46,612 bases of DNA from Desulfocapsaceae bacterium (GTDB lineage: Bacteria; Desulfobacterota; Desulfobulbia; Desulfobulbales; Desulfocapsaceae), in contig JAUSAB010000033.1 in assembly GCA_030653035.1 (NCBI GenBank), positions 1 through 46,612 on the forward strand, in the 5' to 3' direction. Below, in pieces: positions 7,610-14,052 of this stretch; positions within the stretch are counted from its first letter, which is position 1, and every line of letters starts with the position of its first letter. The notes under the pieces were generated by a model. It had not been told where the DNA came from, ran no database searches, and worked only from the letters and a program-made list of their open reading frames with translations. The position numbers were made by a program, and so were the translations under genes.

Positions 7610-8092
7610 CTAACGCCTCTGCGTATGGCAATCTGAACACCTATAAGAACTTAACTTATGGTGAACATTCTCAGTTCTGGGGCTGCCACTCACCGTTTTA
7701 ATCGGATGACACTGCAAACAATCTCTTATAACAGAAGTCTGGAAGTTCATGACATCCGTCTGCTTAATATTATGGCACGACAAACACTCATATTTGTAGC
7801 CGGACGTTATGTAAGGTGCACTTGTCGGTTGCTGAATATCTTTGCCCAGAAAAAGGTGATGCTTGTCCGGGTTAGTATTTTTTAATCTAGGAAAACGAGG
7901 CAGATCTTCATGACATAAGCGACAATCTTTTTCAGTTATTACTGAATCTGACCCGCGATAACCATTCATTCCATCACTACTTAAAGAACTATAGCGAGAT
8001 GAACGCTTTGACGCCACCGCAACATGGGCAAAAAACAATGTTACGGTAAACAAGGTAATAATACTTGCAAATAAAATACTCGTTGATTTCAT
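7610..8092 (-). CDS. Secreted tetrahaem c-type cytochrome, half-OmcZ-like
   Basis: This 160-residue protein has an N-terminal signal peptide (about residues 1-28) and four CXXCH haem-binding motifs at residues 57-61, 103-107, 125-129 and 152-156. Extra His pairs (HH near 78-79 and 144-145) are candidate sixth ligands. The order DCRxCH, PDxHHL, SAP, YxCLSCH, DCLxCH, VHH, CxxCH matches the N-terminal four-haem half of the OmcZ-like protein at 11011-12468, so the two are paralogues. It ends right after the fourth haem. AAGGATGG lies 8 bases before the ATG. It follows the isomerase gene and probably belongs to the same locus. It may cap, seed or feed electrons to the filament; that is inference. 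Confidence 0.88.
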   Translation of the reverse strand: MKSTSILFASIITLFTVTLFFAHVAVASKRSSRYSSLSSDGMNGYRGSDSVITEKDCRLCHEDLPRFPRLKNTNPDKHHLFLGKDIQQPTSAPYITSGYKYECLSCHNIKQTDVMNFQTSVIRDCLQCHPIKTVSGSPRTENVHHKLSSYRCSDCHTQRR

Positions 8093-8170
8093 TATTCCAT
8101 CCTTTATAAAAAACGAATTCTATCTTCTTGCAAATGGTGTCCCAATATTCCCACGGTTAAAACAGTTCTT

Positions 8171-8201
8171 GCACTCCCATTTACCAATGGGAGTGCTTTT
8201 T
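8171..8201 (+). terminator. Intrinsic terminator-like hairpin oriented on the plus strand
   Basis: GCACTCCCATT-TACC-AATGGGAGTGC is a perfect 11-bp stem with a 4-base loop followed by TTTTT. It lies between two minus-strand genes, but its T-run is on the plus strand. It would therefore stop transcripts running toward increasing coordinates; on the minus strand it is only a hairpin. Confidence 0.6.
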
Positions 8202-8254
8202 CTCAAAAATTCAGCTTAATCAAGGGTTAAATAGGTATAAATTTATAACACATA

Positions 8255-9268
8255 TTAATTAAGAAAAATTTCAATTTTAGCTTCTTTCCTCAGTTTATCA
8301 ACATGCTCCAAACGCAGTCTGCTAACACACCTCTCTTCAAGATATTTTTTTATATAATCCCTGACCTGGTCTAATGAGAGATATCCTGCAGGATCCTTTT
8401 CAAGAACCTGTAAGATGTGGTAGCCATATTTGGTCTTAATAACCTCACTGGTTTTTTCTTTTTCGATACTAAAAGCAATTTCGTCAAACTCCGGGGGCAT
8501 GAATCCACGCTCTACAAAATCAAGTTCCCCCCCTTGCTTCTTTGAACGAAGACAATCAGATTGTTCCTCGGCCAGTGTGGCAAAATCCTGGCCAGCCTGG
8601 ATTTTCTTCAAGATGTTTTCAGCTTTCTGACGAGCGGTCTCTTGTTTTGCTTGATCAGAGTTTTCTTCTACCTGAACCAGAATATGCCGAACCTTCACCT
8701 TTTCTTTCTTTTTGAAATTTTCTTTTCCCTGCTCGTAATATGACAGAATTTCTTCTTTCGTAGGTTCACAATGTAACACCCCCACGCTGTCCAGGTATGC
8801 ATTCATCTGAAGCTTGCGTCTTAATGAAATCAACAGTTCCTCTTCGCTCAAATGCTTCGCTTTCAGAAACTGTTCAAATTCCTCAGGCGTCTTATATTGT
8901 TTTTTTTGAGAAGCCAGTTCCTCTTTTAACTTTTGTTCAATGTCCGATATATCGTATTGTTGGATTGCCTGGGCTAGAACTTCGTCATTAATAACTTTAT
9001 TAAGGGCTTTTTTCTTTAGAGTAAGTAACAATTCCGGAGCAACTGTTGTCACGCCAAACTTTGAATATTTCTTGAGACTTTTGTTAACCTCGGGTGTAAG
9101 AGTACTTTCCTTAATTGGTTTACCATTTACCTTTGCTATAACCTTATCTTTATTATCTTCCTCCACTGGTTTTGACTGACAAAAGCCGGTAGAAAACGAA
9201 AAGATGGGGACCATGAAAAAGGTTACCAAAAAGAAAATTGAGGTCGCCTTGTGAATTCGCTTAACCAT
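8255..9268 (-). CDS. Periplasmic parvulin-type peptidyl-prolyl cis-trans isomerase (SurA/PrsA-like)
   Basis: This 337-residue protein has a signal peptide (about residues 1-31), a helical SurA-N-like chaperone region with VIAKVNGKPI at the start of the mature part, and a rotamase domain from about residue 190. That domain shows VRHILVQV, GGELDFVERGFMPPEFDEIAF and KYGYHILQV, all typical of parvulins. It should act as a foldase for secreted proteins. The subtilisin-like protease gene ends 43 bases upstream and the OmcZ-like gene precedes that, so the cytochrome or the protease is its likely client. A PPIase gene is also reported beside omcZ and ozpA in Geobacter (from memory, not checked). Confidence 0.9.
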   Translation of the reverse strand: MVKRIHKATSIFFLVTFFMVPIFSFSTGFCQSKPVEEDNKDKVIAKVNGKPIKESTLTPEVNKSLKKYSKFGVTTVAPELLLTLKKKALNKVINDEVLAQAIQQYDISDIEQKLKEELASQKKQYKTPEEFEQFLKAKHLSEEELLISLRRKLQMNAYLDSVGVLHCEPTKEEILSYYEQGKENFKKKEKVKVRHILVQVEENSDQAKQETARQKAENILKKIQAGQDFATLAEEQSDCLRSKKQGGELDFVERGFMPPEFDEIAFSIEKEKTSEVIKTKYGYHILQVLEKDPAGYLSLDQVRDYIKKYLEERCVSRLRLEHVDKLRKEAKIEIFLN

Positions 9269-9311
9269 TTTAATTCATTAATACAATAACTGAGAGTTTT
9301 ATCATTACTGT

Positions 9312-10802
9312 TCATTGATCAATGGTGATCGCTGCCGAGGAACCAATTGTTCCTATCGGCAAGAAAACGACATTAAATGCAGCACCACTTGCATCAAGAG
9401 AGAAGGAGACATCCTGCGATAACTGACTGCTAAAAAGAATCCTTTTTGAAAGATCATCTCTGACACAACCATTCTCATAAACAACAACCCGCACACCGAC
9501 AAGAGACTTGTTGGCGATGCCAACCTGATACGTCATGTCAAAAAAGGTGTAGAATCTATTATCACTTCTGTGTTTAGAACCCTTGACCAGCTCAAATGAT
9601 ACACCAGCAGTAATCCTCAGGGCAGTCGCGACATCAATCAGACCATAGCCGTAAACATCGTCTTTGCCGGGATCACCCAGATCTCGAGCACTCATTTGCA
9701 ACTGCATGCGAACATCCCGATTATTGGCAATACCGTCATTATTCAAATCGTTCACTCCTGCTGACAAAACAAGGGCCGCCAAACCTGAAACATGAGGCGC
9801 TGCCTGGGATGTTCCACTCAAATCTGCATAGCCATTATTCAAAGAAGTCGACTTGATGGCAACACCGGGAGCCGCCAATTCAATTTGTGAGCCAAGAGGA
9901 GCAAACCAACCCTGTTGATCTGCGCTATCCGTTCCTGTCACTGCAATAACAGAATTATATGCAGCGGGATAAGTGACATCCCCTCCATTTGTATTCCCGG
10001 CTGCGGCAACCAGAAGGACTCCCGCGTCATATGCAGCATCGCATGCGTCTTGAAGGGCCGGGGAATCAGGGCCTCCAATACTTATATTGACAACATCCAT
10101 TTTATTATCAACAGCCCACTCAATGCCTTCTATTATCCAGCTTAAAAGAGCAAAACCGCCACCATCAAGCACTTTCAAGGCATAGATTTCTGCATTGGGG
10201 GCCACACCAACCACCCCGCTGCCATTAGCGGCAGCAGCAATAATTCCGGCCACGTGGGTTCCATGGCTGTTCCAGCTATCGTCATAAGGGTCATTGTCCT
10301 TAAAAACAAAATCCCAGCCGCCCTTATAATTCATGGCAAACTCTTGATGGGTATAATCTATACCGGTATCTAAAATAGCAACCCGAACGCCATTGCCGGT
10401 AATATTCATGGAATGAGCTGCTTGACTCCCTATATGCTTTACCCCCCAGGAATTTTGGTATTCAATCGGATCCGCTACTGACTCTGCGACTATTGCTATC
10501 GGGTCAACCACCGAATAAATCGTATCTTCAACAACATATTTCACTCTCGGGTCTTTGCGCAAACGCTCCACCGCCTGATCTGAGAGCTTAGCGGTATAAG
10601 CTGGGATATGACGAAACTTATGCTTTATTTCAATATCCTTACCGAGCATAAGTGCTTTTTCAGAAGGTCCCGGGTCATTATGAAAACCGATAATGACTGA
10701 ACGCCCCGTCGCTTGAGCCGGAACAATAAAACAGAAGGATAAAAAGAGAACACAGGTAAAGATCAATGATACGCTTACCCGCAATCTATTCATAAAAAGC
10801 AT
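9312..10802 (-). CDS. ozpA: Secreted subtilisin-like serine protease, OzpA-type OmcZ maturase
   Basis: This 496-residue S8 protease has a signal peptide (about 1-31) and an I9-like propeptide (about 33-100). The catalytic domain shows Asp145 (AILDTGID), His180 (SHGTHVAG), oxyanion Asn270 (AAAGN) and Ser332 (SGTSQAAPH), all intact. A beta-rich C-terminal tail of about 100 residues follows. In Geobacter sulfurreducens the equivalent enzyme next to omcZ, OzpA, cuts the C-terminal part off OmcZ; the same role is inferred here from the adjacent OmcZ homologue. The start at 10802 is preferred because AGGGGAG lies seven bases upstream; ATG at 10793 and a start at 10832 are alternatives. The symbol is given by context. 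Confidence 0.88.
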   Translation of the reverse strand: MLFMNRLRVSVSLIFTCVLFLSFCFIVPAQATGRSVIIGFHNDPGPSEKALMLGKDIEIKHKFRHIPAYTAKLSDQAVERLRKDPRVKYVVEDTIYSVVDPIAIVAESVADPIEYQNSWGVKHIGSQAAHSMNITGNGVRVAILDTGIDYTHQEFAMNYKGGWDFVFKDNDPYDDSWNSHGTHVAGIIAAAANGSGVVGVAPNAEIYALKVLDGGGFALLSWIIEGIEWAVDNKMDVVNISIGGPDSPALQDACDAAYDAGVLLVAAAGNTNGGDVTYPAAYNSVIAVTGTDSADQQGWFAPLGSQIELAAPGVAIKSTSLNNGYADLSGTSQAAPHVSGLAALVLSAGVNDLNNDGIANNRDVRMQLQMSARDLGDPGKDDVYGYGLIDVATALRITAGVSFELVKGSKHRSDNRFYTFFDMTYQVGIANKSLVGVRVVVYENGCVRDDLSKRILFSSQLSQDVSFSLDASGAAFNVVFLPIGTIGSSAAITIDQ

Positions 10803-10949
10803 AAAGTGGCTCCCCTTATGAACAGGAAACAAGCAGAAAAATAGAAGTCATACAGATGGGAGTTTATGAAAGCAAGCTTTCCAATCAAGAAGTATGTGAA
10901 CTGTTTACCTTCACACTCGCTGTTTCGTGTTATCGAAAATTCAAGACCT

Positions 10950-10975
10950 GGGGGGAGGCTTTAAACCCTCCCCCC
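10950..10975 (-). terminator. GC-rich hairpin after the omcZ-like gene
   Basis: GGGGGGAGG (10950-10958) pairs perfectly with CCTCCCCCC (10967-10975) around an 8-base loop. It lies 35 bases past the omcZ-like stop on the minus strand. There is no clean T-run, so it may be an attenuator or an mRNA-stabilising hairpin setting cytochrome over protease dosage rather than a full terminator. Confidence 0.5.
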
Positions 10976-11010
10976 GGTTCTTCAAACAGGTAAAGACAAG
11001 TTAAAACACG

Positions 11011-12468
11011 TTATCTTTTTCTGATTTTGGTGGTAGCTTTGCCCCATATAGAAGTTACGGTCACAATGCTTGGACTGACTTGGCATGTCGCTGTGATTTG
11101 GGTATCACTCCAACCCGTAACCGTGCAGGCTACCTTTTTCCCTCTACTATCAACGGCAACAAGACCAGAACCGGAATTAAGAGCATTCAAATCTGAATTA
11201 ATATCTGAATAACCGGTTCCCTTAATGGTAATATTTTTTCCACTGCTAACAATGGAAGTATTTTTTATGGCGGGAACCACTGACAGATGCACAGCATTAC
11301 TGGCTTTGTCAACTTTTACTACGCGGAAGTCGTAATTTCCGGCTTTCAGGGTTGACGGCAAAGTTACCGTCAGGGAATCGGCAGTGATTACCGTGGGAAC
11401 AAGTTCAACAGGAGTACCATCAAGAGGCGTCAAAACAACTTTAGAGGTCAATACGATATCACCGGCAGGTCCAGTGACGACATTAGTAAAGGCAGTGCCT
11501 TTAGCAGTAATGACAGCAGTCGTTCCTGCGGTAACCTTTGCCACGCTCAAGCCTGACACGTCAGGCATAACCGGTCCTGAAGCAGGTGCAGCAGCAGACA
11601 TACCGGCAAAGCCATGGCATCCATTACAGTCAACATTGTTACCAATATGGCCATAATAGGCATCTTCCTTGCCAGGAACAATGGTGGTGGCATTGGCACT
11701 ATTGGGTGAATTCGCCTGAATGTTGTGAAGAGAAGCTACACCATGGCACTTTTCACATGCGCGTATCTTTTGATCATTGGGCAAACTAAAATCATGACAA
11801 AACAGACATTCAGCGTTGTTGCCAAGACCCAAGCCAGTACTGTGATGGGTACCAGAGTTGCTCAGGACATTCAAGCCCGTCGCAGTATTTAACCCGGCAT
11901 CATGACAAAAAGTACATTCTCCCTCACCATTTGGACCAGGATTTGGCTTGCTGCTTGGCCATGGGGTAACAAGGCTTGGAGCATAGGTTGGAATGTAATG
12001 AGGGACCAGGGGGTCATCAATGAAGCCATGGCATGCCTTACAATTTTCAGCCTTGGCTTTAGCGGTGAGATGATGAACAGAAGCTTCATTGGCAATTTGA
12101 GTATGACAGAACAAACAATCTCTGTATGTATTAAAGACATACGACGAAGTTGCTGGGTTCCATACCTGTTGATGACAGGAGAGACATTGGTAGGTAGTAT
12201 CTCCTGACTGGTCAAAAGGTGCCGAATTGGGTACCTGCAGAGGTTTGTTGACAAGGAGATGATGGCGATCGGGAATGGTTCCGGGGTTTACGATATTTGG
12301 ATTCTGATGACATACCCGGCAATCTGGTTCAGTCAGATTGTTAAAAGAAGCGTCCGGAATACCTAATATTTGATTGACAGGTGGCGGTGGAACATTTGCC
12401 CAACTTATTACAGCAGGCACAACCACCAAAAGCGCAGCCAGCAGGTATTGTTTTTTGCTACCAACCAT
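11011..12468 (-). CDS. omcZ: OmcZ-like octahaem extracellular cytochrome (nanowire type)
   Basis: This 485-residue protein has a signal peptide (about 1-24) and then VPPPPVNQILGI..., almost the same as the start of mature Geobacter OmcZ. Eight CXXCH motifs occur at residues 50-54, 95-99, 118-122, 143-147, 185-189, 221-225, 238-242 and 281-285. His pairs near 69-70, 132-133 and 208-209 plus GVASLHNIQ and YYGHIGNN are candidate distal ligands. The haem part ends near residue 290. The remaining 195 residues are beta-rich, Ig/IPT-like, and correspond to the part removed when Geobacter OmcZ matures. Geobacter OmcZ has one unusual CX14CH motif; here that haem site is an ordinary CLSCH. GGGAGG lies 8 bases before the ATG. 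Protease, isomerase and a half-size paralogue follow. Confidence 0.92.
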   Translation of the reverse strand: MVGSKKQYLLAALLVVVPAVISWANVPPPPVNQILGIPDASFNNLTEPDCRVCHQNPNIVNPGTIPDRHHLLVNKPLQVPNSAPFDQSGDTTYQCLSCHQQVWNPATSSYVFNTYRDCLFCHTQIANEASVHHLTAKAKAENCKACHGFIDDPLVPHYIPTYAPSLVTPWPSSKPNPGPNGEGECTFCHDAGLNTATGLNVLSNSGTHHSTGLGLGNNAECLFCHDFSLPNDQKIRACEKCHGVASLHNIQANSPNSANATTIVPGKEDAYYGHIGNNVDCNGCHGFAGMSAAAPASGPVMPDVSGLSVAKVTAGTTAVITAKGTAFTNVVTGPAGDIVLTSKVVLTPLDGTPVELVPTVITADSLTVTLPSTLKAGNYDFRVVKVDKASNAVHLSVVPAIKNTSIVSSGKNITIKGTGYSDINSDLNALNSGSGLVAVDSRGKKVACTVTGWSDTQITATCQVSPSIVTVTSIWGKATTKIRKR

Positions 12469-13254: not shown

Positions 13255-14052
13255 TTACCTAACATTAGCCCCATTTAGAATAGCAGGTAAAAAGATTATC
13301 CATGGAAATGATTTCTTCTTAGAGATAGAGCTTGACAAATACACCTCCGTGTTACTGACAGTATCCTTCTGAAGAAGGTAAAAACCTGCGGGCGTGGTAT
13401 TACCTGCGATGAAAGTAATGACAGCTGTTTCACCCTTAAGAAGATTAAAATCCCAGCTTTGTGCCAGGGCCGTGTCTTCAATGGGCGGATCTAAGTACTG
13501 ATCGAATATTTTATCGAAAAAAATCTTATTATCAAGTCGCGATACAAATGATGACGATGTGCCCGAGAGGACAAAATTATCTACAATATCACCCGTGTAT
13601 ATTTCACCCCCAGTGCCTGTGCTACCAGTCCCTGCCCAGCCAGTCTCGTCAATCTCCCATGAGAGGCCGATTTCGGGAGTACCACTTATTTCACCTGTTT
13701 CATTGAGTTCTTCGTTCAGACTATAATCAAGATCATAGTCTAAATACACTGACACGGAATGAGCCCCCGCTCCTGTTACTGTAATCGTAAGGGCTCCTAA
13801 TCCGTCCTTCAAAGGAAGAACATCATCGGTGAGATGAAAATTGCGATGATCGATGGAAGAGGGCAAACCCGCCAGTGTTGTCAACTGTCCACCAGTAAAA
13901 AAATCAAAATCACAAGGCCCATTAAGACAATAGGTTGTGCCGTCTATATTGATCCCCCAATCGTACAGTTCTGTCTCGGCATGGGCAACCGAGCTGACAT
14001 TCAACAAAAAACATGCAGCAAGTAATGATGTTAAGAAATTCTTCACACTCAC
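13255..14052 (-). CDS. Secreted protein of unknown function
   Basis: This 265-residue protein is not recognised. It has a clear signal peptide (about 1-25, cleavage after AHA). The mature part is acidic and rich in Gly, Thr and Ser, with beta-type segments (LGALTITVTGAG, HSVSVYLDYDLDYSLNEE) resembling a secreted beta-sandwich domain. Two Cys (YCLNGPC) could form a disulfide. The C-terminus is basic-hydrophobic (KKKSFPWIIFLPAIL), which may be a membrane or sorting tail. The stop codon lies only 2 bases from the transposase remnant, so the original C-terminus could have been altered. The start is GTG at 14052; GTG at 14046 is also possible. Confidence 0.6.
   Translation of the reverse strand: MSVKNFLTSLLAACFLLNVSSVAHAETELYDWGINIDGTTYCLNGPCDFDFFTGGQLTTLAGLPSSIDHRNFHLTDDVLPLKDGLGALTITVTGAGAHSVSVYLDYDLDYSLNEELNETGEISGTPEIGLSWEIDETGWAGTGSTGTGGEIYTGDIVDNFVLSGTSSSFVSRLDNKIFFDKIFDQYLDPPIEDTALAQSWDFNLLKGETAVITFIAGNTTPAGFYLLQKDTVSNTEVYLSSSISKKKSFPWIIFLPAILNGANVR

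Follow-up and report, generated by a model that had tools for sequence, protein, structure and literature searches.

The window analysed here, a stretch of 46,612 nucleotides from a Desulfocapsaceae genome, carries genes for an octahaem cytochrome, a subtilisin-like protease, a peptidyl-prolyl isomerase and a tetrahaem cytochrome on one strand (Table 1). The four ORFs lie at 7610-12468, exactly where the initial annotation had placed them, and the host is a member of the Desulfobulbales, as had also been proposed. No terminator-like site in the direction of the genes was found between the four. A hairpin at 8171-8196 was considered as a terminator splitting the isomerase gene from the tetrahaem gene and was rejected, its T-run being on the other strand only. 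Within the window, no Rfam family reached the gathering score.

Table 1. Coordinates of the cytochrome cluster, its domains and a neighbouring gene
Feature	Position	Strand	Extent	Basis
omcZ-like gene, octahaem cytochrome precursor	11011..12468	minus	485 aa, 8 CXXCH	homology, alignment, model, motif count
Haem domain of the octahaem protein	11614..12393	minus	residues 26-285, VPPPPVNQ to eighth CXXCH	alignment A6
C-terminal Ig-like tail of the octahaem protein	11026..11562	minus	residues 303-481	predicted strands and Foldseek matches
S8 subtilisin-like protease with I9 propeptide, OzpA counterpart	9312..10802	minus		Pfam, start-site context
S8 protease, ORF	9312..10832	minus	506 aa as open to TTG at 10832	
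Peptidyl-prolyl isomerase, SurA-like N-domain and parvulin domain	8255..9268	minus	337 aa	Pfam
Half-OmcZ, tetrahaem cytochrome	7610..8092	minus	160 aa, 4 CXXCH	homologous to OmcZ residues 35-149
P0005, unknown family, signal-like N-terminus	13255..14052	minus	upstream of cluster, same strand	

The octahaem cytochrome, its protease and its isomerase

When searched against solved structures (E <= 0.01), the octahaem protein matched two sequences only, both of them OmcZ: 8d9m (E 2.3e-77, residues 10-481) and 7lq5 (E 1.8e-51, residues 26-286). This full-length match to 8d9m, the eight haem motifs and the Ig-like tail bear out the membership in the OmcZ family that had been recognised from the sequence. 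The precursor comprises a signal peptide (about residues 1-24, delimited by eye), a haem domain (about 26-290) and the Ig-like tail (about 303-481). Among 20,000 residue shuffles, the octahaem protein reached at most two CXXCH motifs and the tetrahaem protein at most one.

In alignment A6, the eight motif histidines (54, 99, 122, 147, 189, 225, 242, 285) and eight further histidines (69, 70, 132, 133, 208, 209, 248, 274) are invariant in 25/25 rows, so that all 16 are kept with the Geobacter-type proteins of loci L053 and L055. By analogy with the excerpted description in PMC9473688, we infer that motif and non-motif histidines pair as haem ligands. The spacing of the haem motifs, which had been taken to be that of Geobacter OmcZ, proved to differ: motif 2 is a plain CXXCH in the window protein (CLSCH at 95-99) and CX14CH in Geobacter, and within A6 the non-canonical form is confined to L053 and L055. 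Excerpts of PMC9473688 assign the CX14CH motif, motif 2 in A6, to haem 1, whose site lies at the N-terminal interface; this Geobacter interface loop is absent from the window OmcZ in A6. It is also missing in a subset of Borg OmcZ, which the authors still propose as a nanowire protein (excerpts of PMC11208441), and is therefore not family-wide.

The AlphaFold model of the window OmcZ (25-row alignment) had a mean pLDDT of 60, with the strands of the tail mostly at 70-94 and the haem domain at 29-67 by blocks; that of the tetrahaem protein (14 rows) had a mean pLDDT of 43. Foldseek matched the tail of the OmcZ model to Ig-like domains, and the 50 matches listed had Ig-like and other beta-domain proteins on top, with OmcZ not among them. 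Because the haem domain is poorly modelled, we draw no conclusion on haem geometry, and the predicted structure is too poor to judge the haem chain or the subunit interface.

The initial annotation had also described a complete S8 protease beside the octahaem gene and an isomerase in the cluster, and the domain matches agree. The protease matches PF00082 (E 2.3e-58) and Inhibitor_I9 and retains the blocks with D155, H190, N280 and S342, which we take to be the catalytic residues. Its start is more likely the ATG at 10802, which is preceded by GGGGAG, than the TTG at 10832. The isomerase combines SurA_N_3 and rotamase domains and, judging from its N-terminus, is probably periplasmic. With regard to gene order in related genomes, relatives of both the protease and the isomerase were present in 20/36 OmcZ loci (Desulfobacterota and Gammaproteobacteria), a list that depends on two peptide patterns close to the final haem. 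In one locus (L021), protease and OmcZ form a single 932-aa ORF, within which OmcZ has no signal peptide of its own.

An OmcZ-protease-isomerase cluster is thus present in a Desulfobulbales host as had been claimed, but its occurrence outside Geobacter is not novel, such clusters having already been published. In the available excerpts, similar operons are described as widespread across bacteria and archaea (PMC9473688), OmcZ-type operons are reported in Methanoperedens and Borgs (PMC11208441), ANME carry OmcZ homologues (PMC9012536), and Desulfurivibrionaceae have been screened for OmcZ by HMM (PMC12545173). The plasmid records and viral contigs that we searched contained no OmcZ relatives. 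The G. sulfurreducens cluster (OmcZ GSU2076, OzpA GSU2075; PDB 8d9m, 7lq5) likewise encodes an octahaem protein with an Ig-like tail and an S8 protease, and the Geobacter-type loci L053 and L055 share the gene order OmcZ, S8, isomerase. The fourth gene differs, being an Ig/cadherin-like repeat protein in L053 (2,385 aa) and L055 (cut at 826 aa). OmcZ and protease are also found in the Ca. Methanoperedens/Borg clusters (excerpts of PMC11208441 and PMC10874420), with an isomerase in PMC11208441, where a subset of Borg OmcZ resembles the window protein in having no loop.

A half-OmcZ companion and its distribution

The fourth gene of the window is the most interesting part of the locus. It does encode a tetrahaem cytochrome, as annotated, but not a mere extra one: in a profile-profile comparison it matches residues 35-149 of OmcZ (probability 99.9, E 8e-32). 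The homology is confined to OmcZ's N-terminal half, which bears four haems, the second half having no counterpart, and we refer to the protein as half-OmcZ. Its N-terminus is signal-like and its chain stops four residues past the fourth CXXCH. The four CXXCH motifs are ordered as in OmcZ, with two HH pairs, and the counterpart of the site placed at the N-terminal subunit interface in Geobacter is included. Beyond residue 23 there are four motif and four other histidines, all eight invariant in 14/14 relatives, and the four non-motif histidines are likely haem ligands. Like cytochromes c7/c3 (PF14522, PF14537), half-OmcZ is a tetrahaem CXXCH protein above both generic Pfam cut-offs (Cytochrome_C7, 30.2 vs 24.8; Cytochrom_c3_2, 26.6 vs 25), but its motif and histidine order follows OmcZ and its match to the OmcZ profile is far stronger. 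We found no description of such a companion in the literature; while the cluster outside Geobacter was already known, the companion appears to be the new part.

Across 257 genomes of the order (E <= 1e-15), a stand-alone half-OmcZ was detected in 13/18 OmcZ-bearing genomes and in 2/239 OmcZ-less ones (G056, G077), with a Fisher p of 3e-16 that counts genomes as independent and ignores relatedness. All 17 stand-alone copies in the tree, three gammaproteobacterial ones included, fell into one clan (UFBoot 100); the tree excluded loci from G-handles duplicating named ones, and hence also the copy of G073 (L016). Related modules, fused or longer, occur in the vicinity of OmcZ or S8 in Desulfuromonadales, Thiodiazotropha and ANME archaea. 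In L033, L038, L051 and L059, the fusion partners are F5/8C, CarboxypepD_reg or Ig-like domains, which we take to be of surface type. The module of L059 (Ca. Methanoperedens nitroreducens) is placed after the protease and is part of a protein of 1,562 aa that also contains Ig-like domains, unlike the stand-alone form of the window. The fused-type modules of L021 and L083 have no surface-type Pfam domain, and that of L083 (from G090) is the one of 12 that sits outside the fused clan, beside an OmcZ. No half-OmcZ was found at the two Geobacter-type loci L053 and L055.

A companion of either type was intact in 22 of 33 OmcZ-bearing genomes, a fragment in one and not detected in 10, in a count that takes three pairs of loci sharing a record prefix as one genome each and combines locus-level with genome-wide searches. 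For 15 loci the entire genome was searched, using A7 alone, which may miss a Geobacter-type half because it does not detect Geobacter-type OmcZ; L056 was judged from its 9.6-kb contig, and L039/L046 (the fragment) at locus level. The copies that make up A5 were taken from the neighbourhood of OmcZ, and A7 was compiled from copies that either neighbour OmcZ or come from an OmcZ-bearing genome, including L021 of G078 and L083 of G090. Their recovery of these source copies is therefore by construction, and both may miss diverged copies in OmcZ-free genomes. The figure of 9/9 for the nearest relatives rests partly on this construction; the A7 hits in G265 (two), G271 and G260 are independent of it. 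Many OmcZ-less genomes gave weak hits to A7 (about 26-41 bits), which were set aside as generic multihaem cytochromes. From matching coordinates, we take G122 to be G260, G186 to be G259 (L034), G189 to be G268 (L026), and G193 and G191 to be the genomes of L027 and L051, respectively.

Candidate roles of the cluster and its companion

In Geobacter, OzpA removes the C-terminal Ig-like part of OmcZ (excerpts of PMC9473688), a tail that hinders assembly until it is cleaved (excerpts of PMC12307469). By analogy, the window OmcZ would be exported in precursor form, its Ig-like tail impeding assembly; the S8 protease would cut off the tail, the isomerase would aid folding, and the mature octahaem subunits would stack into an OmcZ-type filament. 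Half-OmcZ would then dock on one filament end and block further extension, so as to cap, anchor or electrically couple the wire, and the relatives' modules with surface-type domains would hold that end to cell, matrix or mineral. We give a probability of roughly one half to this explanation as a whole, in which the four genes make up a single cluster for the assembly of extracellular cytochromes and build an OmcZ-type wire with half-OmcZ as its docked end piece. Polymerisation as such does not depend on half-OmcZ, because none was found at the two Geobacter-type loci and because OmcZ, protease and isomerase are reported, in excerpts of PMC11208441, to be enough for self-assembly in a heterologous host.

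It is possible, although we would not call it probable, that an OmcZ-like wire is made and that the tetrahaem protein, instead of forming its end, donates electrons to OmcZ from the periplasm or the outer membrane. Such a role would suit a protein whose N-terminus is signal-like, which has no other domain and whose c7/c3 matches exceed the cut-offs; a search of the window genome for the MtrB/PioB type of conduit found no such porin, and some other link would be needed. However, the protein is homologous to OmcZ itself and not to a named shuttle (TmcA, NCBIfam NF045722: 17.7 bits, with the cut-off at 114), and the fusions of its relatives to surface-type domains also argue against a donor. A secreted monomeric or oligomeric cytochrome that forms no filaments, as may hold for GSU1334, the second OmcZ-like protein named in excerpts of PMC9473688, appears unlikely. 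The missing interface loop would fit it, and the excerpted literature yielded no experiment on filaments from another organism's own OmcZ. On the other hand, tail, protease and isomerase are all kept, and the loop-less Borg proteins are still proposed to form nanowires (excerpts of PMC11208441).

We regard it as highly improbable that the tetrahaem gene arose from omcZ by partial duplication and is now decaying without function. The gene is homologous to its neighbour and fragment-like, isolated copies exist in the two OmcZ-negative genomes, and its dN/dS against the nearest relative (0.145/0.255) is the highest among the four cluster genes. Nonetheless, this ratio is below 1 (compare 0.099/0.281 for OmcZ), the eight haem-related histidines are invariant, and the nearest kin of the gene are other half-OmcZs and not the adjoining omcZ, so that the tree disfavours a decayed duplicate.

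With the docked end piece as the preferred reading, one may tentatively extend it, at odds that we consider unfavourable, to OmcZ-type nanowires in general: bacteria and ANME archaea would have in common a dedicated end subunit, a half-OmcZ with a single polymerisation face at one end of the wire. If so, the stand-alone form of the window would cap the wire or couple it at the cell, and the forms fused to F5/8C or Ig-like domains would act like a tip or base adhesin of a pilus and fasten the conducting filament to a surface. Excerpts of a 2025 review name membrane anchoring and the points of electron entry and exit of cytochrome nanowires as key open challenges (PMC12307469). A half-OmcZ beside OmcZ in both bacteria and archaea offers a concrete candidate for the missing end piece. 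Geobacter alone may mislead in this respect, because none was found at the two Geobacter-type loci examined. The host, a relative of Desulfocapsa from sediment, would in turn be potentially wired to its surroundings. Upstream of the cluster, P0005 has relatives that also adjoin OmcZ in other loci.

The OmcZ cluster and its host genome

The window corresponds to contig C112 in a genome of 3.41 Mb and 118 contigs, and all four genes claimed in the initial annotation for an OmcZ-type locus (octahaem cytochrome, S8 protease, isomerase and tetrahaem cytochrome) were present. The claimed OmcZ family match was also borne out. A phmmer search of solved structures (E <= 0.01) matched the octahaem protein to OmcZ alone, through 8d9m over residues 10-481 (E 2.3e-77) and 7lq5 over residues 26-286 (E 1.8e-51). 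In an alignment of 25 OmcZ relatives covering Desulfobulbales, Desulfuromonadales, Gammaproteobacteria, Nitrospirota, Geobacter-type bacteria and ANME archaea, exactly 16 histidines were invariant, eight in the motifs and eight elsewhere, which agrees with the two same-chain His ligands per haem described for Geobacter OmcZ (PMC9473688). The haem spacing, which had been likened to that of Geobacter, was so only in part: all eight motifs are kept, but the second is CLSCH, whereas Geobacter has CX14CH with a loop in the subunit interface. CX14CH was found only in the two Geobacter-type rows of the alignment, and the absence of its loop is common to the window protein and a reported subset of Borg OmcZ (PMC11208441). 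The protein's tail was modelled by AlphaFold as beta strands with mostly good confidence, and its Foldseek matches included Ig-like domains.

In the protease, an I9 propeptide precedes an S8 domain with catalytic blocks; the isomerase combines a SurA-like with a parvulin domain. The two genes recur elsewhere, with relatives of both proteins in 20 of 36 fetched OmcZ loci, only one in 8 (merely a short fragment in one locus) and neither in 8; some partnerless loci are explained by a contig end. In locus L021, a single ORF joins the S8 protease, minus its C-terminal region, to the octahaem domain and tail of OmcZ, with no OmcZ signal peptide in between, which provides an independent tie between the two proteins.

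The nearest relative with the same cluster (G006) belongs to the same genus, where OmcZ is unevenly distributed: besides the window genome, 1 of 16 others carries it, and several of those 16 are incomplete. A neighbouring protein, P0005, has a signal-like N-terminus without Pfam or NCBIfam matches and adjoins OmcZ in several loci; matches above 300 bits occurred in 7/257 Desulfobulbales genomes, all OmcZ-bearing, and including weaker ones (E <= 1e-10) in 15/257, four without OmcZ.

OmcZ clusters or homologues outside Geobacter have already been published (PMC9473688, PMC9012536, PMC11208441, PMC10874420). The cluster thus belongs to a known kind, and what sets it apart is its fourth gene.

Coordinates of the cluster and of features in compared loci (L053 and L055 are Geobacter-type)
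Feature	Position	Remarks
omcZ-like -> S8 protease -> isomerase -> tetrahaem cytochrome	7610-12468	minus strand
P0005	13255-14052	
11-pair hairpin between isomerase and tetrahaem genes	8171-8196	T-run on opposite strand only
S8 protease-OmcZ fusion	L021:5619-8417	932 aa
Gene after isomerase, Ig/cadherin-like repeats	L053:14092-21249	2,385 aa
Gene after isomerase, Ig/cadherin-like repeats	L055:14026-16503	cut at 826 aa
Half-OmcZ gene of G056	L082:8466-8882	138 aa
OmcZ, OmcZ, S8, half-OmcZ (second ANME-2 contig)	L118:6746-12418	one strand

The fourth gene as half an OmcZ

Searching the window genome with OmcZ (E <= 1e-5) gave one other match, the tetrahaem gene, whose product aligned with OmcZ residues 43-148 (37% identity, E 2e-15) and, by profile-profile comparison, with residues 35-149 (probability 99.9, E 8e-32). 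Beyond residue 23 its histidines number exactly eight: one in each of the four haem motifs, and four forming two HH pairs located where OmcZ has its first two; all eight were invariant among 14 relatives, and the protein ends four residues past the fourth motif. Judged by sequence, this gene corresponds to one half of OmcZ (hereafter half-OmcZ). Geobacter-type loci L053 and L055 differ, with an Ig/cadherin-like repeat protein in fourth position and no half-OmcZ module gene near OmcZ; searching both genomes with a second half-OmcZ module profile (A7) gave no strong match (best 40 bits in one, none in the other).

Literature searches on OmcZ, cytochrome nanowires and Desulfocapsa, mostly outside subscription papers, found no description of half-OmcZ. 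The Methanoperedens cluster is reported with two more cytochromes of 37 and 15 haems, and no mention of the module was found in the part of that account available (PMC10874420).

Distribution of half-OmcZ

Half-OmcZ goes together with OmcZ. Among 257 Desulfobulbales genomes, OmcZ was present in 18 (A6 alignment, E <= 1e-20), and the stand-alone half-OmcZ (A5 profile, E <= 1e-15, outside OmcZ itself) occurred in 13 of these vs. 2 of the 239 others. In each of the 13 the best copy scored 170 bits or more, and G193, G250 and G251 have another, weaker one. The two exceptions were G056 (64 bits for the best piece) and G077 (102 bits, with one stop inside the match, at a contig end). About 1 kb past the G056 gene lies another whose 1,216-aa product contains GEVED and Ig-like domains. 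Four of the five OmcZ-bearing genomes without a stand-alone copy hold a related module (G078, G090, G122, by matching coordinates G260, and G191, likewise the genome of L051); in OmcZ-bearing G186 (74% complete), a genome-wide search found none. Among 117 nearest relatives, all nine OmcZ-bearing genomes hold a companion of one of the two types (stand-alone copy or related module), A7 having been built partly from two of these positives (G078 and G090); the 108 without OmcZ showed the stand-alone type in G056 and G077 only, and no A7 match above 52 bits. Fisher tests, which ignore relatedness, gave p = 3e-16 for the order and 7e-12 for the nearest relatives.

In a set reaching beyond the order, 36 OmcZ loci from GTDB genomes were grouped into 33 genomes by record prefix. 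A companion of either type was intact in 22 (in 18 within the same fetched locus as OmcZ), broken in one (L039) and not found in ten (L034, L048, L049, L050, L052, L053, L055, L056, L058, L060). Stand-alone copies occurred in Desulfobulbales-type loci and three Sedimenticola genomes. Longer module proteins were found in Desulfuromonadales (two in L033, one in L038, two in the genome of L047), Thiodiazotropha L040 (ending at a contig edge), L051, the genome of L037 and Ca. Methanoperedens L059. The ANME-2 protein of L118 has 5 haems and a C-terminal extension. Pfam scans of the modules in L021, L033, L038, L051, L059 and L083 detected CarboxypepD_reg and F5/8C domains in L038 and the first L033 copy, CarboxypepD_reg in L051 and the second L033 copy, and Ig-like domains in L059, but none of these in L021 or L083. 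A tree built from 67 module sequences grouped the 17 stand-alone copies, including those of Sedimenticola, G056 and G077, into one clan (UFBoot 100) and 11 of 12 longer-type modules into another (UFBoot 95); the twelfth, L083, was placed beside an OmcZ.

Loci L029, L030, L031 and L035 have an additional 7-haem cytochrome (363-366 aa) after the half-OmcZ gene. OmcZ loci L039, L040, L042, L043, L045, L046 and L054 come from genomes recorded as the gammaproteobacteria Thiodiazotropha and Sedimenticola, and our literature search found no paper naming both OmcZ and Thiodiazotropha.

A possible role at the filament end

In Geobacter, OzpA is reported to take off the OmcZ tail, after which mature subunits polymerise (PMC9473688; PMC12307469), and haem 1, bound by CX14CH, sits at the N-terminal subunit interface (PMC9473688). 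Half-OmcZ would present this N-terminal face and, without the second OmcZ half, could not be extended further; it could therefore cap or couple one filament end. AlphaFold models of OmcZ and half-OmcZ were both too poor for use. Alternatively, half-OmcZ may be a periplasmic electron donor. OmcZ, protease and isomerase together have been reported as sufficient for nanowires in a heterologous host (PMC11208441), so half-OmcZ would not be needed for polymerisation as such. How cytochrome nanowires are anchored, and where electrons enter and leave them, are listed as open questions in a 2025 review (PMC12307469). A capping or coupling role for half-OmcZ is plausible and testable, and in some loci the module is joined to surface-type domains, as would suit an end piece with an attachment function.
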